DNA from: Kiritimatiellia bacterium
GTDB lineage: Bacteria; Verrucomicrobiota; Kiritimatiellia; PWTM01
Direction: 5' to 3'
Assembly (NCBI GenBank): GCA_026417735.1
Contig: JAOACR010000004.1
Location: forward strand, 15,001 to 79,000
DNA: 64,000 bases
The notes beneath the pieces are model-generated. The model was not told where the DNA came from, made no database searches, and saw only the letters and a list, made by a program, of their open reading frames with translations. Both the position numbers and the translations under genes were made by a program. Below, piece after piece: positions 1 through 51,179 of the stretch (its first letter is position 1; each line of letters starts with the position of its first letter).

Positions 1-360
1 ACCACCGCGCAACGGATCACTCACACCCCACACCACCATTTTCAGCCGCGCCAGCACCGCCGCCCCCGCACACATCGCACACGGTTCCTTCGTCACGTAC
101 ATCACCGCCCCCTCCAGCCGCCAATCGCCCCTCGCCGCCGCCGCCTGCGTGATCGCCAGAATCTCTGCGTGCGCGGTCGGATCACGCAGCCGCTCCACCT
201 GGTTTGCCGCTTTCGCGATCAGCCGCCCCTCGTGCACAATCACCGCGCCGACCGGCACTTCGCCATCCTCCCCCGCCGCGCGCGCCTGCGCAAGCGCGAT
301 CCGCATGAACCGCTCGTGACGCCGTCGCTCCGCACCCGCCTCGATCATCTCCGCACCCAT
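1..360 (-). CDS. tadA: tRNA-specific adenosine deaminase (partial, C-terminus cut by window edge)
   Basis: Deaminates A34 to inosine in the tRNA-Arg(ACG) anticodon, a cytoplasmic housekeeping step. The reading frame is open from ATG at 360 to base 1 (120 residues). It shows the CDA-fold zinc site: HAEI (His64, catalytic Glu66) and PCAMCAG (Cys94, Cys97), with the usual TadA lead-in of a PVGAVIV strand. About 30-40 C-terminal residues should lie left of the window. A later ATG (codon 5) is an alternative start. It is divergent from the cas-containing operon, with 128 bp between them. In many bacteria tadA, ffs, dnaX, ebfC and recR are neighbours; here the cas operon lies between tadA and ffs, and tadA points the other way. 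Confidence 0.93.
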   Translation of the reverse strand, partial: MGAEMIEAGAERRRHERFMRIALAQARAAGEDGEVPVGAVIVHEGRLIAKAANQVERLRDPTAHAEILAITQAAAARGDWRLEGAVMYVTKEPCAMCAGAAVLARLKMVVWGVSDPLRGG

Positions 361-454
361 GCCTTCTACCCTGCCGTGCCGCACCATGCGCCGCAACCCG
401 CACACCGCAGCGTGCCGCGACGTCTCCCATTCTCGCCGGCGTACCCCGCGGCGC

Positions 455-461
455 TTATACT
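455..461 (+). promoter_or_regulatory. Possible -10 element of the helicase-cas operon
   Basis: A TTATACT stretch 28 bases before the helicase ATG is the only AT-rich hexamer in the 128-bp divergent gap between tadA and the operon, and TATACT matches four of six bases of a sigma-70 -10 box. No convincing -35 is seen 17 bases upstream. The helicase start also lacks a clear Shine-Dalgarno sequence, so a short-leader or leaderless-like transcript is conceivable. Weak evidence. Confidence 0.25.
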
Positions 462-488
462 CAACCGCAACACCCCAGACCACCAACG

Positions 489-2633
489 ATGAGGATGACC
501 GAGACGCAGCAGGCCGCCTTACGCACGCTCGCCGCTTTCCTGCGCGAGCGCAGCGTACGCATCGCGATCCTCCGCGGGTACGCCGGCACCGGCAAGACCA
601 CGTTGCTGGCCCAGCTCGCCCAGCTCGCCGAGCGAGACAACCGTCACGTCGTGCTGCTGGCGCCAACCGGCCGCGGTGCGCGCGTGCTCGCCACCGCAAC
701 AAGACGTCCTGCCGCCACAATCCACGCGCACATCTTCAGCCTGACCCAACTCGACACCCGCCGCACCTCGGACGACGAACCCGACACGCTCCACGCCGCG
801 TTCCGCCTGCGCACCAATCACGACCGCGCTCCGACCCTCTATCTCGTCGACGAAGCCTCGATGATCTCCGACACCTTCTCTTCTTCGGAGACTCTGTGCT
901 TCGGTTCAGGACGGCTGCTGGCCGACCTTCTCGAGTATGCGCTCTTCAGTTCGCCCGGCGACGGTCACCAGATCGTCTTCGCCGGCGACCCCGCACAACT
1001 ACCACCGGTGGACCAATCCGAGTCCCCCGCACTCGAACCCGCATGGTTTCGCGAACATTACGGGCTGCAGCCGCTGGTGGTGGAGCTGACCGACATCGTC
1101 CGCCAGGCCGCCGAGCATCCCCTCCTTGAGCTGGCCACAGCGCTGCGCGACGGCTTGCGGTCGGAGTGCTTCTGCGACCTCCGCATCGCGGACGCACCGC
1201 CCGGACTGCAGCGCATTGGCGCGTTCGACCCCGCCGGGTGGGCCGCCCATCTGCGCGAGCGAGGTATGGCCTCCGCAGTGGTGATCACAGATTCCAACGC
1301 CCGGGCGCTGCGCTACAACCGCGCAATCCGCGCCGAGCTTCACGGCACACCGTCCGCACCCCCGCAGCCCGGTGACCGGCTCATTATCGCCGCGAACTCC
1401 CACTACAATGAGCTACCATTGCTCAACGGCGATCTCGTCGAAATCGTCGCGGCGGACCGCGAGGTGGAAATCGTCCAGCAGCCGCTCGCCGCCCGCGATC
1501 GCGACAGTGGCCGGAGAGTGATCCCGCTGATGTTCCGCCGCGTCGTGATCCGGCCGCCGAGCGCCAGTCCCACCACGAAGCTCGAACTACGCATTCTTGA
1601 AAATACGCTCGACTCCGAGGAGCGCGACATCTCGCGACTCGAACACCAGGCCCTCTATGTGCACTTCCGTCAGCGGTATCGCTCACTGGACCCGCGCTCG
1701 CCGGATTTCATCTCGACGTTGTTCCGTGACCCGTGGTTCACCGCGCTCCGCGTGAAATACGCATACGCGCTCACTGCCCATAAGGCTCAAGGCGGCGAAT
1801 GGCCACGGGTGTTGGTGGACATGGCCACCGTCTGGCACCCCGCCACCGCCACATGGTTCCGATGGGCCTACACCGCGGTCACCCGCGCACGCGAGGAACT
1901 CCAGCTGCTCAACGCGCCCACCCTTTCGCCAGACCTCCGCGCGGAGCCAGCAGCCGCCGGCATCGTCCGCGTGTGCGACGCCATTCACCCCACCCTCCGT
2001 CCCGCCGATGCGGCTCTGCCGCCGGAATGGCTGGGCAGCACCGCCTTCCTCCGCGCCGCCACGCTCGAGATCCTTCACGCGCTGCGGGAAGCGGGCTTCG
2101 AAGCCACCGGTGTCGCTCACTACCCCTGGCTGATCCGCTTCGAACTTGTTCACGACAGGCGCCCGATCTCCGCGAACGTGCACTACAACGGCCAGCAGCG
2201 CCTCACCACGCTGGTCACTCCGCCACAGGCGGACCAGACCCTCGCCGACGCGCTGCGCACCGCGATCGCGCCCCTGCTCGGTCGGCCGTTCGTGCTGGAC
2301 CACCTTGCGCTGCCGGTGCCATCGCCCGAACTTCCACCCCACTCGCCGTTGCCGGAAACCTGCCCTCACCCCGGCATGCGGCGATTCGATCAGCTCCATC
2401 GCGCAGCGCTCACCGGCCAGCCGCTGTCGATCACCGCCATCGAAGTGCTCGGACGCCACCAGCTCCGCTACACCTACCGCGACGCCAGCGGCGCGCAGGC
2501 GGTCATCAACTACTACTTCAACCGCGCCGGCGCGTGCACCAGCCACTCAGTGGACGCCCGGCGCACCACCGCCGCGGAACTGGCCGGCCGTATCCTCGCC
2601 CTGCGCCGGCCACTACGCGAGGCGCCCCAATGA
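489..2633 (+). CDS. RecD-like SF1 helicase with C-terminal extension, first gene of cas1-cas2 operon
   Basis: Predicted ATP-dependent 5'-3' DNA helicase of the RecD/AAA_30 plus UvrD_C_2 type, 714 aa. Visible motifs: Walker A GYAGTGKTT (Lys36), Walker B LVDEAS near residue 120, GDPAQLPPV near 166, motif V AHKAQGGEW near 430 and motif VI TAVTRARE near 461. The helicase core ends near residue 475. About 240 further residues follow that I do not recognise; the last 90 include an IEVLGRHQLRYTY-like beta segment. There is no N-terminal RecD2-style helix-hairpin-helix region: Walker A is reached within 36 residues. Its stop overlaps the next start (ATGA at 2630-2633), so translation is probably coupled. 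By context it may supply or process DNA ends for Cas1-Cas2; that role is inference. Confidence 0.88.
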   Translation: MRMTETQQAALRTLAAFLRERSVRIAILRGYAGTGKTTLLAQLAQLAERDNRHVVLLAPTGRGARVLATATRRPAATIHAHIFSLTQLDTRRTSDDEPDTLHAAFRLRTNHDRAPTLYLVDEASMISDTFSSSETLCFGSGRLLADLLEYALFSSPGDGHQIVFAGDPAQLPPVDQSESPALEPAWFREHYGLQPLVVELTDIVRQAAEHPLLELATALRDGLRSECFCDLRIADAPPGLQRIGAFDPAGWAAHLRERGMASAVVITDSNARALRYNRAIRAELHGTPSAPPQPGDRLIIAANSHYNELPLLNGDLVEIVAADREVEIVQQPLAARDRDSGRRVIPLMFRRVVIRPPSASPTTKLELRILENTLDSEERDISRLEHQALYVHFRQRYRSLDPRSPDFISTLFRDPWFTALRVKYAYALTAHKAQGGEWPRVLVDMATVWHPATATWFRWAYTAVTRAREELQLLNAPTLSPDLRAEPAAAGIVRVCDAIHPTLRPADAALPPEWLGSTAFLRAATLEILHALREAGFEATGVAHYPWLIRFELVHDRRPISANVHYNGQQRLTTLVTPPQADQTLADALRTAIAPLLGRPFVLDHLALPVPSPELPPHSPLPETCPHPGMRRFDQLHRAALTGQPLSITAIEVLGRHQLRYTYRDASGAQAVINYYFNRAGACTSHSVDARRTTAAELAGRILALRRPLREAPQ

Positions 2634-4225
2634 CCGCGCCGGTTTCCGTTCGTGAAGTCTACACCCTCCGCCGGGCCGACCGATTGAAAGAAGCCATCGC
2701 GGCGGCGCGCAGCCTCTTTCAACGGCACCCCTCCGATCCCAACACCCGCCACGCGCTCGCCTGGTGCCTGGTAAACCTCGCCTGGGCCGCACTCCGACGT
2801 GCCGACACCAACACCGCCCACGGCCATGTGGAAGATCTGGACCCACTGGTCGATTCCTCTGACGTGCAGTTCCATGATGCCCGCGCCCGCCTTCAGGACC
2901 GCCCTGCAGGCGACCCCCGTGCCCACGAGATCCTCAAACGGCTCGTGCAACTGGCCGGCGATTCCGCCGCCAGCAACCCCCTCCGGTCAGACTCTCCGCG
3001 AACGGAGGGACTCCGACTGCTGCGGCAGTACGCGCGGCTGACCGCATTGAAGCGGCCCGGCGGGATTCACTCTCAAATCCTCTCCACCGCGATCCGCCTC
3101 CACCGCCAGATCCCCCGCTTTGTCGCGTTTGCGCGGTGGTGGGACCCCGCCCATCTGCAGGAGGCCGATTGGCAGCGCCCCGCGAAAACCTCGGCGACGC
3201 GGTCATCTGACGCCCCGCCACGCTCGCTCGTTGAACGACTGATTGCCGCACTGGCCCACTACCGCCAACACCCCGACTTCACCCGCGACAACCTCGCACC
3301 ATTCGAGCCCGTGTGGACCCGCGCGCTGCAGCGATTCCCCGACAACAACTGGCTGCTCTACCAGGTGGGCGTGATGCTCACCCGACTCGGCCGCGAAGCT
3401 GACGCACAGCCGCTGCTGCTCCGGTTTGTCGAGCGTCATCCGGATGACTGGTGGAGCTGGAGCGCGCTCGCGGAAGCGTACGCCGGTGAGCCACGCACTG
3501 CCGCTGCGCTGCTCGCCCGCGCGATCAGATCTGCAGCGCGCCAGCCGCATCCCGCGCAGCGTCTGCGCCGACAGCTTTCGGAATACGCGGCGCGTCTGGG
3601 ACGACCCGAAGTCACCCGCGCGCTGTTGGCCAAGCCGGCCGTGCAGCAGCCCGCAGCCGGCCCCGCCCTAACTCACAAGCCCGACCAGGCCACCGACATG
3701 GCCGCGTTGGACTGGTGGATCGCCGAACTGGCCGCGCGCGCGGACGCGCTGGTGTTCCCCACCAATGTGCTCGGCGTCATCACACGCCATGACACCGCGC
3801 ATCACCTCACCGTCATCGCGATCGGCCCCGCGAGAGTCGCACTCGGCCGTCGTCCCCTGTGGCCCGAGGTCGCCCTGCCGCGGCCGGGATCCAATGTGCT
3901 CGTCGCGCTGGCTGCCCCGCTCGAGCCCGGTCGACCGGCACTTGTCCAGGCCGACCGCTTCGTTGAGCGACCGCACCCTTCGGACTTCGCGCGCCGCATT
4001 TCCGGGCGTTTCCAGCGCCATCCCCGCGGGTTCGGCTTCGTTGGCGACATCTTCGTTCACGCGACCCATGCGCGCCATCTGGCCGACGGCGCCGTCCTGC
4101 GGGGTATCGCCACGCTCGACGCCCCCGCCCGTCATCCCGGCCGCCGGTCCTGGGCCGCGATCCCCATCGAGGTAGAGCCGGACACCCGCCCGCGCCGATC
4201 TGGAGACCTGCCATGCCCGGCCTGA
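2630..4225 (+). CDS. TPR protein with OB-like and cold-shock-like domains (cas operon)
   Basis: 531 aa, no catalytic motif seen. The N-terminal two thirds are helical and TPR-like: residues about 10-60 (ADRLKEAI then DPNTRHALAW) and a clearer pair around 235-310 (NWLLYQVGVMLTRLGREADA, then DDWWSWSALAEAY). A beta-rich stretch at about 379-450 could be an OB/S1 fold. Residues about 458-515 contain RGFGFVGDIFVH, which matches the RNP motifs of cold-shock domains with a shortened loop. It probably binds single-stranded nucleic acid and acts as a scaffold. The start is fixed by the ATGA overlap with the helicase; its end overlaps cas1 by 13 bases. I recall TPR plus S1/CSD-like partners in computationally defined conflict systems, but cannot check the match here. 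Confidence 0.75.
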   Translation: MTAPVSVREVYTLRRADRLKEAIAAARSLFQRHPSDPNTRHALAWCLVNLAWAALRRADTNTAHGHVEDLDPLVDSSDVQFHDARARLQDRPAGDPRAHEILKRLVQLAGDSAASNPLRSDSPRTEGLRLLRQYARLTALKRPGGIHSQILSTAIRLHRQIPRFVAFARWWDPAHLQEADWQRPAKTSATRSSDAPPRSLVERLIAALAHYRQHPDFTRDNLAPFEPVWTRALQRFPDNNWLLYQVGVMLTRLGREADAQPLLLRFVERHPDDWWSWSALAEAYAGEPRTAAALLARAIRSAARQPHPAQRLRRQLSEYAARLGRPEVTRALLAKPAVQQPAAGPALTHKPDQATDMAALDWWIAELAARADALVFPTNVLGVITRHDTAHHLTVIAIGPARVALGRRPLWPEVALPRPGSNVLVALAAPLEPGRPALVQADRFVERPHPSDFARRISGRFQRHPRGFGFVGDIFVHATHARHLADGAVLRGIATLDAPARHPGRRSWAAIPIEVEPDTRPRRSGDLPCPA

Positions 4226-5701: not shown

Positions 5702-5818
5702 CGAGGCGGGACCGGACCGGGTCCTGCGCGGCGGTGCGCGACCGAACCCCGTCAGGCCCGGAAGGGAGCAGCGGTAAGGCCGCCGTGCCGAGCGCCGCAG
5801 AGCGCCCGGTCCGCCCGC
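5702..5818 (+). ncRNA. ffs: Signal recognition particle RNA, small bacterial (4.5S) type
   Basis: RNA scaffold that binds Ffh in co-translational membrane targeting. The conserved apical hairpin is unmistakable at 5751-5778: GTCAGG, then CCC, a GGAA tetraloop at 5760-5763, GGG and AGCAG on the return strand. The flanks GGCGGGACCGG (5' side) and CCGGTCCGCCC (3' side) can close a long imperfect stem, giving about 115 nt. The 5' and 3' ends are estimated from this pairing. Position just upstream of dnaX is a widespread arrangement and supports the call. Confidence 0.9.
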
Positions 5819-14512: not shown

Positions 14513-15931
14513 ATGCCCTCGTGCCGGGTTTCTCGCCGTTCGTTCTTGCTCACGGCTGCGGGGGTGAGCTCCTTTTTGATTCTCCCGCGTCGTGCGCGTG
14601 GCGCAAACGAGCGGATCCGGGTCGGCTGTATCGGAATCGATGGCAAGGGACGCTCGGACGTGCTGTGGACCGCCGCCGCGGGCGCCGAAATCGCGGCATT
14701 GTGCGACGTTGTCGACCCTCGGCACGCCGCCGCGCGAAAACCACCCAAGGACGGCGAATCCCTGTTCCAAAAGTTCCCGGATGCGAAGTTCTTCACGGAC
14801 TACCGAGAGATGCTTGAGGCGATGAGCGACCTCGACGCGGTGACGATCTCGACGCCGGACCACCATCACTTCCACGCCGCAATGCTCGCGATGCGGAAGG
14901 GACGTCATGTCTACTGCCAAAAACCCCTGGCGCACTCCGTGTGGGAGGCGCGCAGGATGGCCGAAACCGCCGGCGCGGCCGGCGTTGTCACGCAGATGGG
15001 TAACCAGGCCCATGCGGGGGAGCCGCTTCGTCGGGGAGTGGAGCTGGTGCGCGCAGGGGCGGTCGGCCCTGTGACCGAAGTCCATGCGTGGACCGACCGC
15101 CCGATCTGGCCGCAGGGTATGAGCGCGTGGCCGAAGGCCGAACCGGTGCCGGAGGGGCTCCACTGGGATCTCTGGATCGGGCCTGCACCGTTCCGTGAAT
15201 ACAGCGCCGCGATCGCACCGTTCAAGTGGCGCGGATGGTGGGACTTTGGCACCGGCGCGCTCGGCGACATGGGCTGTCACATCCTCGATCTGCCCGTCTG
15301 GGCGCTCGCAAAAGGGCCGCCCAACCGCGTTGAAGCCTGGTCGGAAGGGGGCACCGAGATTTCGGGGCCGCTGCGCTCGATCGTCACCTGGCACTTTCCC
15401 ACTAGCTGGTTCGGCAGGCCGTTCAAACTGGTCTGGTACGACGGCGTCAAGGGCAAGGACGGCAAGTACGAGTTCGCCCCGCCGGAGGAGCTCTGGAAGG
15501 CGGACTTCCCGACGCCGGACCACGTGTTTCGGCGTTTCGATGTGATCCTGGTGGGCGAGAAGGGCCGGATGTTTTTCGGCCGTACCCGGACCGACTGGGT
15601 CTTCAAACCCGACTCCCTCAAAGACGAAATCGGCGACCCTCCGAACACGATACCCCGCGTGCCGCCCATCACGGCGGACGGAAAATATGGCGGCAGCGAC
15701 CCCTCCGTCGTGGAGTGGCTCAATGGCATTCGGGGCGGGCCTGCGCCGCTGTCACGTTTCGAACTGTCCGGCCCGTTGACAGAAATTGTTCTGTTGGGCA
15801 ACGTCGCAGTGCGGGTCGGTCGGCCCGTTGAATGGGATTCCGGGGGTTTGCGCGCGCGCAATGTGCCGGAGGCCGCGGCGTTGATCCGACGCCGCTACCG
15901 GTCGGGCTGGGAGATTGAGCCGGCAACCTGA
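14513..15931 (+). CDS. Tat-exported Gfo/Idh/MocA family oxidoreductase
   Basis: 472 aa. Twin-arginine signal VSRRSFLLTAAG at the N-terminus, so it is probably exported folded with its cofactor. NAD(P)-binding Rossmann region RVGCIGIDGKGRS, then ISTPDHHH and CQKPLAHS (the EKP motif in QKP form). The family-typical GNQAHAGEPLRRGVE and GALGDMGCHILDLP follow. Exported members of this family are numerous in PVC bacteria and act on sugars or sugar acids; the reaction here is unknown. ATG 14513 has AAGGAG nine bases upstream. Followed after 35 bp by the DUF4832 gene. Confidence 0.92.
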   Translation: MPSCRVSRRSFLLTAAGVSSFLILPRRARGANERIRVGCIGIDGKGRSDVLWTAAAGAEIAALCDVVDPRHAAARKPPKDGESLFQKFPDAKFFTDYREMLEAMSDLDAVTISTPDHHHFHAAMLAMRKGRHVYCQKPLAHSVWEARRMAETAGAAGVVTQMGNQAHAGEPLRRGVELVRAGAVGPVTEVHAWTDRPIWPQGMSAWPKAEPVPEGLHWDLWIGPAPFREYSAAIAPFKWRGWWDFGTGALGDMGCHILDLPVWALAKGPPNRVEAWSEGGTEISGPLRSIVTWHFPTSWFGRPFKLVWYDGVKGKDGKYEFAPPEELWKADFPTPDHVFRRFDVILVGEKGRMFFGRTRTDWVFKPDSLKDEIGDPPNTIPRVPPITADGKYGGSDPSVVEWLNGIRGGPAPLSRFELSGPLTEIVLLGNVAVRVGRPVEWDSGGLRARNVPEAAALIRRRYRSGWEIEPAT

Positions 15932-21181: not shown

Positions 21182-22177
21182 GTGGCCACCATGCTGCTCT
21201 CCGGCCCCGGCTGGTGTGATCTGCAGGTGAACGGTTTTGCGGGCGTGGACTTCAACCATCCCGACCTCACGCCGGAACAGGTGCACCACGCGCTCGCCGC
21301 GATGCGCGCGACCGGCGTCACGCTCTGCCTGCCGACGGTGATCACCTCCCCGCTCGAACAGTTCGCACGCGCGGCGAAGACGATTCTGTCGGTTCGCGAT
21401 CCCGCGATCGCCGGTCTCCACATGGAGGGTCCCTACATCAATCCTGCCGACGGGCCCCGCGGTGCGCACCGGCGCGACGCGACCATGCCGCCGCTGCTCG
21501 GCGACTTCCTCCGTCGGCAGGAGGCGGCGGATGGCCGAATTCGCCTTGTCACGCTCGCGCCGGAGCTGCCCGGCGCGCTGCGCCTGACCGAGGCGCTCGT
21601 CAGCATGGGCGTGCGGGTCGCGATCGGCCACTCCGCAGCAACGCCCGGGCAGATCGCCGACGCGGTACGCGCCGGCGCCACCCTCTCCACTCACCTCGGC
21701 AACGGCGTGGCGCTGCTGTTGCCCCGTCACCCGAATCTCATCTGGGCCCAGCTGGCCAGCGACGAGCTCTCCGCCTGCTTCATCGTGGACGGCCACCACC
21801 TGCCACCGGAGACCGTGAAGGCGATGATCCGCGCAAAAGGCCTCGCCCGCTCGATCCTCGTCACCGACGCGACCGCGGCGGCCGGCGCGCCCCCCGGCCG
21901 CTACACGATCGGCGCGATCGAAATCGTCCGCACGCCGGACGGCCGCGTGACCCTCGCAGACGGCAGCTCGCTGGCCGGCTCCGCACTGACGCTGGACCGC
22001 GCGCTGGCGCTCGCCGCCCGCTATACCGGCCATACGGTGCCGGAGCTGTGGCCGCTGGCCGCGCAGCAGCCGGCCGCCGCTATCGGGCAGGTGCCTCGCG
22101 GCCGCGTCACCGCGCGATGGACGCCCGGCACCGGGCGCCTCGAGGTGCTGCGCGTCGAGCCGGAGACTGCGCAGTGA
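21182..22177 (+). CDS. nagA: N-acetylglucosamine-6-phosphate deacetylase (short form)
   Basis: Removes acetate from GlcNAc-6-phosphate. 331 aa, shorter than the usual ~380: the protein begins almost directly at DLQVNGFAGVDFN, so most of the N-terminal beta-sandwich is missing. Metal and catalytic residues are present: Glu in GLHMEGPYIN, His in IGHSAATPGQ, His in STHLGNG, and Asp in LVTDATAAAG. LGNGVALL replaces the common LFNAM. GTG 21182 or ATG 21191 could be the start. The stop overlaps the following transporter start (GTGA). Confidence 0.93.
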   Translation: MATMLLSGPGWCDLQVNGFAGVDFNHPDLTPEQVHHALAAMRATGVTLCLPTVITSPLEQFARAAKTILSVRDPAIAGLHMEGPYINPADGPRGAHRRDATMPPLLGDFLRRQEAADGRIRLVTLAPELPGALRLTEALVSMGVRVAIGHSAATPGQIADAVRAGATLSTHLGNGVALLLPRHPNLIWAQLASDELSACFIVDGHHLPPETVKAMIRAKGLARSILVTDATAAAGAPPGRYTIGAIEIVRTPDGRVTLADGSSLAGSALTLDRALALAARYTGHTVPELWPLAAQQPAAAIGQVPRGRVTARWTPGTGRLEVLRVEPETAQ

Positions 22178-23457
22178 GCCGGCCGCCGATTCGCGGGCTG
22201 CGCTGGTGGATTGCGGCGCTGTTGGTGCTGTCCACGACGTTGAACTATCTCGACCGTCAGGCACTCTCCGCGCTCGCGCAGACGGTGCAGCGCGCGCTCG
22301 AGCTCTCGAACGAGGACTATGCAAGGATCACCTCCTCGTTTCTGCTCAGCTACGGCGTGATGTACCTGCTCGGGGGGACGCTGGTGGACCTGCTCGGCGT
22401 GCGGCGGAGCCTCGCGCTGTTTGTGCTGGCCTGGTCGCTGGCGACCGCCGGGCACGGCTTGGCCGCGTCGCTCGCACATCTGTGCGTGGCGCGGTTCCTG
22501 CTCGGCGTCGCGCAGCCCGGGAACTTTCCGGCCGGCGTGCGGGCGGTGAGCGAGTGGTTCCCGATGCGCGAGCGCGCGATGGCGGTCGGCCTCTTCAACG
22601 CGGGCACCGCGCTGGGCTCGACGCTCGCGATGCCGGTGGTCTCCGCGCTCGCGCTGCGCTGGGGCTGGCGCGCCGCGTTCGTTGGGGTCGGCGCGCTCGG
22701 TCTGCCTTGGCTTGCGGCGTGGCTGTGGCTGTACCGGGCGCCCTCGGAACACCCCCGTCTTGCGCCGGAGGAGCTTGCGCGCATTCGCGACGGCGCGCCC
22801 GCGGCCCCATCGGCCAGCCGCATCCCCTGGCGCTGGCTTCTGCGCGCGCCGGAAACGTGGGGCTGCGTCGCGGTGCGCGTGCTCACCGATCCGATCTCCT
22901 ATTTCCTCGCCTTCTGGACACCCAAATACTTTCAGGCCGAGCGCGGCTTCGATCTGAAACAAGTCGGCACCTTCGCGTGGCTGCCGTTTCTCGGCATGGC
23001 GCTCGGTAGCACCGCTGGCGGTGCACTCCCGCGGTGGCTCACCGCGCGCGGATGGAGCGTGAACCGCGCACGAAAGACGACGATGGCGCTGGTCGCGATC
23101 GCCATGCCGGCGCTATGTCTGGCGGTGACGCGCGTCCGTGGCGCACCGGCCGCCCTCGCGGTGATGTTTGCGATCATGTTCGGGCACGGCGCCTACGGCA
23201 ACATCACGCTCCCCGCCGAGGCATTTCCGAGCCGCGTGGTCGGCACCGTCTCCGGCCTCGGCGGCGCGCTCGGCGCCGCGGTCGGCGTGCTCACCCAGCT
23301 GCACATCGGCGTGGCGGTGGACCGATGGTCCTATCGCCCGCTCTTCGCAGTCTGCGGTAGCGCCTACGCGGTCGGACTGCTGGTGGTGATGCTGACCATT
23401 CCGCGGCTCGGCCATCCCCGCGAGCCGCCGGCCCCCACCCCGCCGCGGACGCGCTGA
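22174..23457 (+). CDS. MFS transporter, anion:cation symporter (ExuT/GudP-like) type
   Basis: 427 aa, about twelve membrane helices. NYLDRQALSAL in helix 1 and GVAQPGNFPAGVRAVSEWFP are typical of the ACS family of hexuronate/glucarate porters. It starts at GTG 22174 overlapping the nagA stop by four bases, which places it in the nagB-nagA operon and suggests uptake of an amino sugar or sugar acid. The substrate is not certain: the family is defined on acids, the context is GlcNAc. Confidence 0.88.
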   Translation: MSRPPIRGLRWWIAALLVLSTTLNYLDRQALSALAQTVQRALELSNEDYARITSSFLLSYGVMYLLGGTLVDLLGVRRSLALFVLAWSLATAGHGLAASLAHLCVARFLLGVAQPGNFPAGVRAVSEWFPMRERAMAVGLFNAGTALGSTLAMPVVSALALRWGWRAAFVGVGALGLPWLAAWLWLYRAPSEHPRLAPEELARIRDGAPAAPSASRIPWRWLLRAPETWGCVAVRVLTDPISYFLAFWTPKYFQAERGFDLKQVGTFAWLPFLGMALGSTAGGALPRWLTARGWSVNRARKTTMALVAIAMPALCLAVTRVRGAPAALAVMFAIMFGHGAYGNITLPAEAFPSRVVGTVSGLGGALGAAVGVLTQLHIGVAVDRWSYRPLFAVCGSAYAVGLLVVMLTIPRLGHPREPPAPTPPRTR

Positions 23458-23474: not shown

Positions 23475-23521
23475 GTCCCACCCTTGGACACCGCGCCGCC
23501 GGCGCCGTCCAACGCTTGGAC
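23475..23521. promoter_or_regulatory. Paired palindromic operator-like element, copy A
   Basis: Two 15-bp sites, GTCCCACCCTTGGAC (23475-23489) and the perfect palindrome GTCCAACGCTTGGAC (23507-23521), with centres exactly 32 bp (about three helical turns) apart. It lies between the transporter stop and the AraD-like gene, 167 bp before the latter. The same layout recurs at 49921-49966. Likely a tandem protein-binding site; the regulator is unknown. Confidence 0.5.
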
Positions 23522-23687: not shown

Positions 23688-24407
23688 ATGCCGTTGGAGT
23701 ACGCAGACCTTCGTGAGGCGCTGTTCGAATCGCTGAGGTCGACCCTCGCGGACGGCGTGGCGGTCGCGGAGCTGTCGAGCCTGAGCTGCGCGGACCGCAC
23801 GTTGGGCGTGTTTGTGGTGCGTCCCGCCGGCGTTCCGCTCGCCCAGCTGCGGCCGGCCGACCTGCCGGTGCTGTCGCTGGCAGACGGTCATCTCGTCGCC
23901 GCAAACACCCCGCCACCTGCGGACGCCGCAGTGCATCTGATCCTGTACCGCCACATCCCCGAGGTTCTCGGCATTGCGGGCACTCGTTCCCCGTTCGTCA
24001 CCGCGTGGGCGCAGGCCGGCCGGGAAATCCCCGCGTTCGGCACCGCGCACGCGGAATGGTTCGACGGGCCGATTCCCCTCATTCGGATGCCGGCCGAAAA
24101 CGTGCATGGAACCGCGGAAGACACGCGCATCGGCGCAGGGATCGTGCGCTGGTTTGCGGAGCAGGGTGTGGACCCGCTGGCCCGGCCTGCCGCACTGGTC
24201 GAATCGCACGGTGCCTACAGCTGGGGTCGGTCGCTCGCGGAGGCACTTCGCTGCGCCGCCGCGCTCGAGACGATTGCAACGATCGCCGCCTGGACCGTGC
24301 TGCTGCAGCCGAAGGTTGCCCCGATGCCGCGGGAGCGGCTCGCCACCTACTTCCTGCGCGCACGGCGCAAACCCTCCGCGCCTGGCGCAGACCGCCTCGG
24401 CGCCTGA
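23688..24407 (+). CDS. AraD-like class II aldolase/epimerase, zinc site degenerate
   Basis: 239 aa, aligns over its whole length with L-ribulose-5-phosphate 4-epimerase: DRTLGVFVVRPAGV (AraD DRxxGVFVIKPSGV), TAWAQAGREIPAFGTAHAEWFDG (AraD IWAQAG...GTTHADYFYG, by recollection), and ESHGAYSWG. The two zinc ligands in the AraD HTHS motif are replaced by Gly98 and Arg100 (AGTRS); only the third, His174 in SHGAYSWG, remains. The phosphate-site serines (SSDT) read PADA, the catalytic Asp of HADYF reads Glu123, and PSG reads PAG. It is therefore probably inactive as an epimerase, or altered in function. The frame is intact and codon use normal, so it is not a decayed gene. Start ATG 23688, with GGAG 12 bases upstream. 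Confidence 0.82.
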   Translation: MPLEYADLREALFESLRSTLADGVAVAELSSLSCADRTLGVFVVRPAGVPLAQLRPADLPVLSLADGHLVAANTPPPADAAVHLILYRHIPEVLGIAGTRSPFVTAWAQAGREIPAFGTAHAEWFDGPIPLIRMPAENVHGTAEDTRIGAGIVRWFAEQGVDPLARPAALVESHGAYSWGRSLAEALRCAAALETIATIAAWTVLLQPKVAPMPRERLATYFLRARRKPSAPGADRLGA

Positions 24408-47133: not shown

Positions 47134-49218
47134 TCAGCGGAAGAACAGTGGCGGGACGTTCTTCAGCACCGGCGCAATCACGAGCGAAACCACGCTCATC
47201 AGCTTCATCAGAATGTTCAGCGACGGACCCGCGGTGTCCTTGAACGGATCGCCGACCGTGTCGCCCACCACCGCAGCCTTGTGCGCGGGCGACCCCTTGC
47301 CGCCGTGCGCACCGGCTTCGATGTGCTTCTTTGCGTTGTCCCACGAGCCGCCGGCGTTGGCCATAAACAGCGCCATCATGACGCCCGACGCGGTGACGCC
47401 CGCCAGCAGCCCGCCGAGCATCTCCTTGCCGAAGAGAAAGCCCACCGCGACCGGAGTGATCACGCCCAGCAGCGCGGGCGCCGTCATCCGGCGGATGGCT
47501 GCGGCGGTCGAAATGTCCACGCAGCGCGCGTAGTCGGCGCGAACGCCCGGCTTACCCTCCAGCAGCCCGGGGATTTCGCGGAACTGACGGCGCACCTCCT
47601 CCACCATCGAGAGCGCGGCCTGCCCCACCGCTTGCATCGCGAAGGCAGAGAACAGGAACGGCATCATCGCGCCGACCAGCAAGCCCGCACAGACCTTCGG
47701 GTTCATCACATCGATGCTGCTGAGGCCGACGGTCTGCCCGTACGCGGCGAACAAGGCCAGCGCGGTCAACGCGGCGGAGCCGATCGCAAAGCCCTTGCCA
47801 ATCGCGGCGGTCGTGTTGCCGCACGCGTCCAGCTTGTCGGTGCGCTGGCGCACCTCCTTCTCAAGGTGCGACATCTCCGCCACGCCGCCGGCGTTGTCCG
47901 CGATCGGCCCGTAGGCATCCACCGCCACCTGGATGCCCGTCGTCGCGAGCATGCCCAGACCCGCAATCGCGATGCCGTACAGACCGGCCACCTGGTACGC
48001 CACCACCAGCGCGGCGGCCAGCACGACCGTCGCATAACCGGTCGACAGCATCCCGTTACCCAACCCCGCGATGATGTTCGTCGCGGCGCCAGTGTTCGAG
48101 GACGCTGCAATTTTGTTCGACGGGCCTTTCCCCTCGGCCGTGTAGTACTCTGCGAGCAGCCCGATCATCACCCCCGCAGCTAGTCCCGCGACCAACGCAT
48201 AAAAGATGCCGATGCCCTGGTGGGTCGCCTCGCCGCCGAGCGAGAAGCTCGCCGGCGCAAACCGCTGGATCACAAAATACGAGACCACCGCGGTCGCGAT
48301 CGCGGCCGCAAAGGTACCCATGTTCAGCGCCGTCTGCGGATTCCCTCCCTCCTGGGTCTTCACGAAGAACGTACCGCTGATCGAGAACACGATGCCGACG
48401 CCGGCCAGCAGAAACGGCAGCATCACCAACGACACCGCATGCTCCGCGGCGGCGGCACCCAGCACCATCGCGGACACGATCGCGCCGATGTACGACTCAA
48501 AGAGATCCGCCCCCATCCCGGCCACGTCGCCGACGTTGTCGCCCACGTTGTCCGCGATCACCGCCGGGTTCCGCGGATCATCCTCCGGAATCCCCGCTTC
48601 CACCTTGCCCACGAGGTCCGCGCCGACGTCCGCCGCCTTCGTGTAAATGCCGCCACCAACGCGCGCAAAGAGCGCGATCGAGCTCGCACCCATCGAGAAC
48701 CCGGCGAGCACCGGCAGCACGGTGGACTGCAGCGTCGCAGCCTCGTGACCGAACACCCGCAGGTAGATCATCGCGAGGATCGAGAGCCCGAGCAGCCCTA
48801 GCCCGACCACGCACATCCCCATCACCGAGCCGCCCGCAAACGCCACTTCCAGCGCGGGCGAGAGCCCCTTGCGCGCCGCGTTCGTGGTCCGCGTATTCGC
48901 CGCCGTCGCCACCCGCATGCCGAAGAAGCCCGCGAGCGCCGAGCACGCCGCGCCCACCACAAACGACACGGCGACCAGCCGCACCGGGCCCTTGTTGATC
49001 GCGGCAAGCACGGCCGCCACCACCACCACGAAGACCGCCAGCACCTTGTACTCGCGCGCCAGAAACGCCATCGCGCCCTCGCGCACTGCCGCGCCGATTT
49101 CGCGCATCCGCTCGGTACCGGGATCCAGTCCGTTGATCCAGGTCGTCTTCCAATACGCGTACAGCAGGGCCAGAACTCCGCAGCCGGCTGCTGCCCAGAG
49201 TGCCGTTTCAATGTTCAC
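47134..49218 (-). CDS. hppA: K+-stimulated membrane pyrophosphatase (Na+ or H+ pump)
   Basis: Couples pyrophosphate hydrolysis to ion export across the inner membrane. 694 aa, about sixteen helices. Pyrophosphate-site motifs: [29 protein letters not shown] and [19 protein letters not shown]. The cytoplasmic [16 protein letters not shown] has Ala at the position where K+-independent enzymes carry Lys, so it should be K+-dependent, and a Na+ pump is possible. It starts at GTG 49218 with AAAGG upstream, chosen because residues before it lack family similarity. Divergent from the STN-domain gene. Confidence 0.95.
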
Positions 49219-49369
49219 GTTCGCCGCCTTTCTGTTTACGTTGTGCGGTCGGCCGACGACCGCCCGAACTGAAAAAAAGACCGCCACAGGGTAGGCAACG
49301 CGCCCGCGCGGGTCAAGCCGCTTGCGCCCCCAGCCCCTCGAGTGTTCACTCAAAGGTGCAGCTCAAGCC

Positions 49370-49774
49370 ATGAGCTTTTCGATTTGCTGGTTGCTGGTGT
49401 GCGCACTCGCGGCCGCTCAGGGGCCGGCCCACGCCGGTTCCCCGGTGCCGTCTCCGCCGCCCGCGCGGACGCCGACCGGTGCCTTCGAGCTCGAACTGCC
49501 GGACATGCACTTCCGCCAGGCGCCACTGGCGGAGATCCTCGCGTGGATCCGCGATCGCAGCCGCGAAGCCGACCCGGAAGGTGTCGGCGTGAACTTGATC
49601 CTGAAGGACGACGCCGCCGGCACGCTGGGCGCGATGCGCCTCACGCTGCGACTCACGCGTCCAACCGTCCGTCAGGCTCTCGAGCTGCTGGCCACCACCG
49701 CAGGGCTCTACATCCGACGCGAGCGCAACGTCGCAGTGATCGAGCGCTCTCGTGCCGGCCCACCGTCGCGCTGA
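49370..49774 (+). CDS. Small periplasmic protein with secretin/TonB N-terminal-like (STN) domain
   Basis: 134 aa. Signal peptide FSICWLLVCALAAAQGPAHA. The mature part is a single N0/STN-like unit: FELELPDMHFRQAPLAEILAWIRDRSRE, NLILKDDA, LRLTRPTVRQALELLATTAGLYIRRERNVAVI, the beta-alpha-beta layout seen in secretin N-domains and TonB receptors, but no channel follows. It may be a periplasmic interaction module. ATG 49370 begins the signal peptide; the hppA start is 151 bp away on the other strand. Confidence 0.78.
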   Translation: MSFSICWLLVCALAAAQGPAHAGSPVPSPPPARTPTGAFELELPDMHFRQAPLAEILAWIRDRSREADPEGVGVNLILKDDAAGTLGAMRLTLRLTRPTVRQALELLATTAGLYIRRERNVAVIERSRAGPPSR

Positions 49775-50288
49775 GCCCGCCGCGGCCGTCCCTGGCCGCG
49801 CCGTTGTTCCCGACCCGGGGCCTCTGCGTCCGGCCTCGTGCAGCGCAGATCTTGCCCGAGGGCCAGCAGTCACCTCCCGCGAGGTGAGGGCCGGCCGAAT
49901 ATCGCAACCGCGCGACTTTTTCCAATCGATGGACACCGCAGGTCATCGGTCCTCCAAAGATTGGACCCCAAAACCCGTTTCGTGCTGCGCGCCCGGCCTG
50001 CCACTTCGCGCAGAGGAGAGGCCCAGCGCTAGACCCCCGTCACCCGTATGGTCGCCGCCATTCCCCGCGCGCTTCGCCCACCCCGCCCGACCGCCGTAGC
50101 CTCACTCACGACGGTCGAAACCCACCTCTCTTACCTCCTCCACGCGCCCATGCGAATGGAGCACCGGCTCGTCTCACGCAACAGGGCCGAAACTCTCAAC
50201 CGCACACGGCGGACGGGCGGTTGCGCATACGGCTCGCCCGCTACAGAGCACCCCGAGCCAGTCGTCTGCAGGAGGCCGCCGAGCCCCC
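49775..50288. other. 514-bp intergenic region holding paired palindrome copy B
   Basis: Lies between the converging STN gene and the aldo/keto reductase gene. Apart from the paired palindrome at 49921-49966 I see no gene, RNA or clear terminator. Several short frames are open but have poor codon character. Confidence 0.5.
49921..49966. promoter_or_regulatory. Paired palindromic operator-like element, copy B
   Basis: TCCAATCGATGGA (49921-49933, one mismatch in the arms) and TCCAAAGATTGGA (49953-49965, perfect arms), with centres 32 bp apart as in copy A at 23475-23521. Both copies share TGGACACCGC after the first site and TTGGACC at the second. No gene start lies close downstream, so if it is an operator its target is unclear; a repeated non-coding element is the alternative. 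Confidence 0.5.
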
Positions 50289-51179
50289 TCAGGTGGATTC
50301 CGCCAGCGCGCGGTTCATCCGCTCGATCGCCTCGTCAATTTCCGCGCGGCTCTTGAACCCGATCGTGATCGCGTCCACCTCCGGCAACGACATCGCAAAG
50401 CGGATGGACTTTTCGCGATCGGCCGGGTCCCGGAAATCGCCATTGCCGATGATCTTCATGCCGATCACGCCGTGGCCGTTGCGGCGCATCACGCGGAGCT
50501 GCTCGAGCACCGGCGCGATGTCCGTGCCCTGCGCGTCCCAACGGGGTGTCGGCCCGTCAATGTGCCGCGCCTGCGGATTGATGCGCACAAGGTTCACCTG
50601 AACCCACTCCGACTCCGCCGCGACCTTCAGCGCCGGCAGCGCGTGACACGACACACCCTTGCAGAGAACCCGCCTTTTCGACTGTGCCTCGTCGATCGCG
50701 TCCATCAGGCGCTTCTGATCGTCCGTCCACGTGTGGGTGACCTGGCAGTGGACCAGCAGGCAGTCAAGGTAGTCGGTTCGATAGACGCGCAGCAGGTTTT
50801 CGATTTCCTCAGCGGGTTTCTCGGGTTTGCCGCCGATCTTCGTCAGCAGAAAGATCTTCTCGCGAGGCAGCGGCGCGATCGCCTCGGCAATCCACGGCAG
50901 CGTTCGATAGCTTTTCGCGCAGTCGAAATAGGTGATGCCGCGCTCGAACGCGTAGCGGACGAGGTCGTTGAACGCCGACTGGCCAAGGTCAAACTGCACG
51001 CGGCCACCATTGGAGCCGGTGCCCATGCCGAGTCGGCTGATGCGCAGCCCCGTTGTGCCGAGCGGAACCAGATCGGTGGCCGTCCGCCGGGACGCTGCCG
51101 CCGCAGCGGCGGAAGTGGCGGCGAGCGCGGCGGTCTGCGTGAGAAAGCGGCGGCGGCTCCACTGGAGGTTCGGATTCAT
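50289..51179 (-). CDS. Tat-exported aldo/keto reductase
   Basis: 296 aa. Twin-arginine signal SRRRFLTQTAALAAT. AKR features: GTTGLRISRLGMGTG opening strand, YFDCAKSYR (Asp, Tyr), FLLTKIGG (Lys) and LLVHCQVTHTW (His) giving the catalytic tetrad, then GVIGMKIIGNGDF. It is probably an exported NADPH-type oxidoreductase of sugars or aldehydes. The start (ATG 51179) overlaps the stop of the O-antigen ligase-like gene (TGATG). GAAAGGAG precedes it. Confidence 0.9.
   Translation of the reverse strand: MNPNLQWSRRRFLTQTAALAATSAAAAAASRRTATDLVPLGTTGLRISRLGMGTGSNGGRVQFDLGQSAFNDLVRYAFERGITYFDCAKSYRTLPWIAEAIAPLPREKIFLLTKIGGKPEKPAEEIENLLRVYRTDYLDCLLVHCQVTHTWTDDQKRLMDAIDEAQSKRRVLCKGVSCHALPALKVAAESEWVQVNLVRINPQARHIDGPTPRWDAQGTDIAPVLEQLRVMRRNGHGVIGMKIIGNGDFRDPADREKSIRFAMSLPEVDAITIGFKSRAEIDEAIERMNRALAEST

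Follow-up and report, generated by a model that had tools for sequence, protein, structure and literature searches.

The 64-kb window analyzed here (the whole stretch of DNA under study, positions 15001 to 79000 of contig C4 in the 3.09-Mb, 24-contig draft assembly G000) contains two copies, A and B, of a palindrome pair (Table 1). The element is restricted to a single bacterial class, over-represented, helically phased, indifferent to gene orientation and, in its own genus, evenly spread along the chromosome. The pair is a real and recurrent arrangement of helically phased palindromes, and the evidence supports reading it as a double site for a dimer of dimers. We regard it as close to an even call that copies A and B are among approximately 75 to 100 paired candidate sites of one sequence-specific DNA-binding protein with a chromosome-organizing role, as in matS/MatP and SlmA. 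The unit consists of two GTCCAANSNTTGGAC-type palindromes with their centers 32 bp, or three helical turns, apart. Each palindrome would hold one protein dimer, and neighboring dimers, sharing one face of the helix, might assemble into a tetramer or begin a filament. Less certainly, and judging from the anatomy of the sites, complexes of this putative binder may give structure to the chromosome by anchoring or bridging it at regular intervals, rather than serve as promoter operators, a role comparable to that of the matS/MatP, SlmA, or Noc sites elsewhere.

Table 1. Palindrome pairs and other features of the window (window coordinates)
Feature	Position	Strand	Details
Small SRP RNA, bacterial (RF00169)	5715-5814		
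MFS transporter (PF07690)	22174-23457	+	Stop codon 18 bp ahead of copy A
Copy A, site 1	23475-23489	.	GTCCCACCCTTGGAC; core 23476-23488, 1 arm mismatch to TCCAAN3TTGGA
Copy A, linker	23490-23506	.	17 bp, joining the two 15-bp sites; sequence not conserved across own-genome pairs
Copy A, site 2	23507-23521	.	GTCCAACGCTTGGAC; perfect, core start 23508
Class II aldolase/adducin domain protein (PF00596; AraD-like gene)	23688-24407	+	Start ~167 bp past copy A
Membrane H+-pyrophosphatase (PF03030)	47134-49287	-	Adjoins the small gene preceding copy B
Small ORF, no Pfam match	49370-49774	+	Stop codon 146 bp ahead of copy B
Copy B, site 1	49920-49934	.	TTCCAATCGATGGAC; core 49921-49933 (TCCAATCGATGGA), 1 mismatch
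Copy B, site 2	49952-49966	.	CTCCAAAGATTGGAC; core start 49953 (TCCAAAGATTGGA), core perfect
Aldo/keto reductase (PF00248)	50289-51179	-	Convergent; ends 323 bp past copy B

The original prediction described copy A (positions 23475 to 23521) as two 15-bp GTCC-N7-GGAC sites 32 bp apart, the second of them perfect, and this is what the sequence contains, with an offset of exactly 32 bp. Copy B (49920 to 49966) follows the same plan, with its two cores again 32 bp apart. The window holds 4 sites that depart from TCCAAN3TTGGA by no more than one mismatch, all of them in these two copies. Simulated windows with matched first-order composition had a mean of 0.63 such sites, and 32-bp pairs appeared in 0 of 200.

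Genome-wide, TCCAAN3TTGGA has 102 perfect matches (positions were obtained for 100 of them), compared to 2 for the reversed control pattern, and sites are present on all large contigs. Pairs were sought in 1.155 Mb of sequence, comprising contig C9 as a whole, most of C7 and C4, and part of C3. The only enriched spacing there is 32 bp, represented by 33 pairs (at most 3 mismatches in total per pair); every other spacing up to 200 bp yields at most one near-consensus pair, and the control motif gives no pairs at 32 bp under the same criterion. Good sites in this sequence are almost all halves of pairs, and the chromosome-wide set is estimated at about 75 to 100 pairs, roughly one per 30 kb. The logo is GTCCAANSNTTGGAC in the genus of this genome and TTCCAANSNTTGGAA elsewhere in the class, with lineage-specific dialects (GTCC..GGAC and TTCC..GGAA) and a middle base that is nearly always C or G. 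The original prediction had named single sites at random spacing and in random places as the contrary outcome of a genome scan; the scan instead found 32-bp pairs, and their positions proved to be over-dispersed, as described below.

To determine the taxonomic range, the pair pattern was scanned against genome_contigs, in which each of 84,980 species is represented by a single genome. Among the matches listed, all are metagenome-assembled or single-cell records labeled Kiritimatiellae, Lentisphaerae, Verrucomicrobia, or uncultured; the class name Kiritimatiellia for the matching relatives is taken from these labels. Site counts in 116 relatives are bimodal, with 0 to 9 sites in about half of them and 27 to 3347 in the rest, and vary within genera. 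About 98 sampled genomes from other classes of the phylum contain 0 to 4 sites each. Such variation, from 0 to 3347 sites in the class and more than 100-fold within a genus, would be odd for an indispensable chromosome organizer. An unbiased palindrome-pair search in the stretches around the Lrp loci of relatives recovered essentially the same motif only, at 31 or 32 bp, and the same search in short pieces of site-poor genomes gave no pairs. No description of the paired motif was found among the open-licence papers searched.

Across the class, the sites are single, paired, or assembled into phased arrays. In the relatives, steps of 31 and 32 bp are joined by those of 62 to 64, 94 to 95, and 125 to 127 bp and, rarely, of 21/22, 42, and 52 bp. 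The best period over 592 site-to-site distances is 10.46 bp (R = 0.906); with only the 144 distances longer than 70 bp, R remains 0.81. The genome G022 contains an array of up to 11 perfect sites with steps of 31, 32, 31, 31, 32, 31, 32, 31, 31, and 32 bp, and other families have arrays with 22- and 30/31-bp steps. Since the 31/32-bp steps fit the 10.46-bp period, a protein that binds duplex DNA as phased dimers is the expected ligand, and the phasing is strong evidence that these dimers would be aligned on one face of the double helix. In G068, G086, and G045, steps of 22, 30, and 31 bp follow alternating or symmetric orders, such as 22-31-31-31-31-22. Distances of 150 to 600 bp (loci L076 to L286 and G082) give a weak hint of phase, as DNA looping would, in a sample too small to rely on (n = 12, P about 0.008).

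Short intergenic palindromes in pairs and mosaics are also typical of REP/BIME elements, and the sites could belong to a dispersed repeat family of this kind, spreading by copying. In G022, 58 of the 72 linkers have a relative with at least 80% identity and the array flanks recur, so that sequence is shared beyond the palindrome; the linkers of CAIVKH are partly related, and the arrays of G068 resemble one another in their middle letters. The related linkers indicate that the arrays of G022, and in part those of CAIVKH, have also spread by copying. The arrays of G022 (L196 to L215) are dispersed repeats of mosaic makeup, in which linkers are related and a flank recurs, and many contigs terminate inside them, so these arrays probably break assemblies. 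However, the linkers of the genome under study are mutually unrelated, their similarity (0.593) being at the level of the shuffled control (0.588). Therefore, the 32-bp spacing in this genome is not a copying artifact, and a repeat family is refuted as its full account. Pairs within open reading frames (ORFs), moreover, lie in collinear coding sequence common to the congener G001, not in an insert, and copying does not explain the helix-phased alternation of 31- and 32-bp steps, which indicates a spacing set by the helical repeat. As a general explanation, copying thus seems quite improbable.

In contrast to random placement, the loci are evenly spaced. In this genome, 72 loci contain a perfect site; the smallest gap between neighbors is 12.7 kb, and no gap is shorter than 12.6 kb, compared to 14.7 expected (0 of 20,000 simulations). 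For 35 pairs on four contigs, an intergenic-constrained null model reproduced neither the smallest gap nor the coefficient of variation (CV) in 20,000 simulations each; in these spacing nulls, some contigs were entered with estimated lengths. In G001, the smallest of 23 gaps is 15.7 kb (P = 2e-5). The evenness is an observation on one genus, represented by these two genomes, and the genome G082 contrasts with it: its 606 sites on a single contig are mostly single and locally clustered rather than even, and 57% of the site clusters lie in ORFs. The single, clustered sites of G082 and the copied arrays of G022 and CAIVKH count against the structural reading.

Four G001 pairs share their place with a pair in G000, three of them inside ORFs. 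In these three, the palindrome arms are identical at 60 of 60 positions, compared to 46 of 75 in the middle and linker and 245 of 360 in the flanks, a figure biased by the requirement for a pair in both genomes; the arm identity fits selection on the arms. Synteny breakpoints coincide with 6 of the 8 intergenic pairs mapped in G001, whereas the 113 other intervals contain just 8 (P = 2e-5; limiting the comparison by interval size gives 6e-4 to 9e-4), a test that rests on eight intervals. A more tentative proposal, which we think has a reasonable chance but would not favor outright, is that of a new Kiritimatiellia system, in which a tetramer- or filament-forming protein occupies three-turn pairs every ~30 kb and defines the borders of chromosomal domains, these borders also serving as rearrangement breakpoints.

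Regulators commonly use paired operators with a three-turn separation, and the pairs might accordingly represent operators of a global transcription factor, with two dimers cooperating across three turns to regulate nearby genes. The location of the pairs is in part what such a regulator would require: 27 of the 35 pairs are intergenic, compared to about 10% of the sequence (the gene calls, from a home-made caller, are approximate). However, these 27 pairs comprise 11 in co-directional, 8 in convergent, and 8 in divergent gaps, so convergent and divergent gaps are equally represented, and the remaining 8 pairs lie in ORFs; all gap classes are likewise used in other genomes, including G082. The pairs are thus not limited to upstream, nonconvergent positions, and relatives share no targets. 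When 4314 ORFs located within 2.5 kb of pairs in about 27 genomes were clustered, no family recurred apart from an ABC transporter, seen in five. The genes beside the largest arrays, which were checked for an autoregulated binder, share no feature. The pairs are often found at gene-order breaks, not traveling with the same genes, and their positions are over-dispersed. A weak test found no promoter-like match near copy A or B. Copy A does lie upstream of the AraD-like gene, as stated in the original prediction, but the stop codon of the MFS transporter gene is also close by (Table 1), and copy B sits in a gap between convergent genes. With adjacent genes listed and no family recurring among them, a reading of the pair as operator of the AraD-like gene, or as the mark of a regulon, is not supported; a promoter regulon is rejected on gene orientation, neighbor clustering, and over-dispersion. 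Regulation of nearby genes by a global factor is, on this evidence, a rather unlikely account of the pairs.

Several pairs, among them copy A, are found 12 to 20 bp from a stop codon, which would suit an RNA-level element, with each palindrome forming a 6-bp stem and a 3-nucleotide loop in a transcript and acting as a terminator or processing signal. However, neither copy has a terminator-like match (no GC-rich stem followed by a run of T) or an Rfam match, so that a terminator or structured RNA is unsupported at A and B. Divergent gaps are used too, and for an RNA the helical phasing would serve no purpose. This explanation appears very improbable.

The patchy, genus-variable counts of up to 3347 sites suggest yet another possibility, a self-recognition sequence of the DNA uptake type that accumulates via transformation and homologous recombination. 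A strongly over-represented short motif with lineage dialects is what is seen in the DUS of Neisseria and the USS of Haemophilus. In Neisseria, most DUS lie between genes, and they favor the core genome and are missing from genes of recent acquisition (PMC2397512). A core bias of this kind is suggested in G082, where many sites are coding and where sites are spread through the first 3 Mb, at least, of the single contig. This contig includes a 126-kb motif-free stretch (C1, 94.6 to 220.5 kb) rich in genes for sulfatases, glycosidases, and similar secreted enzymes, with a tandem duplicate pair, whereas both flanks of the stretch are site-rich and carry housekeeping genes. The pattern of absence from acquired DNA is not seen in the genome under study, where the site-free gaps are not acquired islands: judged by eye from sequence starts, they carry core genes of the dnaE, eno, murC/murG, rpoN, mutL, and uvrA types. 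Further, a DUS acts as a single site (PMC2397512) and has no requirement for helical phasing, whereas strict pairs and phased arrays imply that several dimers bind duplex DNA. With one pair per about 30 kb, this genome is also much sparser in sites than the ~1-kb spacing of USS (PMC7811141) would give, and the sites are very sparse in its family. An uptake signal is therefore, in our judgment, unlikely. We know of no earlier uptake or self signal in the Kiritimatiellia group and, should the motif prove to be one, it would be the first that we are aware of.

If the pairs are sites of a chromosome-organizing protein, its identity is constrained by gene content. No LysR-type protein (T-N11-A boxes) is encoded in the site-rich genomes G000 to G005, G008, G013, G014, and G022; a TetR_N protein, as in SlmA, is absent from the site-rich G005, G008, G014, G035, G041, and G103; and a GntR protein is absent from the site-rich G000, G002, G014, G023, G041, G068, and G089. 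Given these site-rich genomes, all three families are excluded as the binder. Of 38 class members, 36 have a conserved Lrp/AsnC-type protein; the two without it are site-free and are the two genomes sampled from family f2. However, it is also present in many site-poor genomes, and its recognition helix differs among the site-rich ones; although the phased arrays had made this class-wide protein look promising as the binder, neither its presence nor its helix clearly tracks the sites. The protein (C9, positions 264390 to 264614, L029, and loci L244 to L276) has an acidic, variable recognition helix. Lrp/AsnC (feast/famine) dimers bind 13- to 15-bp palindromes at regularly spaced, aligned sites, wrap DNA, and form octamers (PMC2995911). 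Palindromes of 13 to 15 bp in phased arrays are common to both systems, and an Lrp-like architecture offers a reasonable picture of the putative complex.

Among the closest known systems are matS/MatP and SlmA. The matS site, GTGAC-RNY-GTCAC, is a 13-bp sequence whose copies are scattered, some of them in intergenic regions, with no effect on regional gene expression (PMC3116907). Like matS of Enterobacteria and relatives, the motif described here is a 13-bp 5-N3-5 palindrome with many dispersed copies tens of kilobases apart. However, the sequences are unrelated (GTGACRNYGTCAC for matS and TCCAANSNTTGGA here), and matS sites are single and confined to Ter, whereas the sites described here form three-turn pairs throughout the chromosome. 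With a different motif and no confinement to a macrodomain, the element is not a member of the matS/MatP system. SlmA, which acts in nucleoid occlusion, has 50 sites, mainly in coding regions (PMC3116907). These are likewise tens of palindromes scattered over the chromosome that are not operators, but SlmA belongs to the TetR-like proteins, and in several site-rich relatives no TetR domain is present at all; furthermore, SlmA sites are excluded from Ter, and no such region is seen here. The known dispersed organizing sites (matS, SlmA, Noc, and parS) come from a few model bacteria. If the chromosome-organizing reading is true, an evenly spaced, helix-phased motif that is limited to one class and can be read from sequence would provide a new system for studying chromosome domains, and the paired motif makes its putative binder easy to fish out.

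Pairs or phased arrays of the motif are also found in four viral contigs (L284, L285, L286, and L237), two of which appear to be Mu-like. One of these pairs lies within an ORF for a virion protein, and two of the contigs also encode a small XRE-type helix-turn-helix protein.
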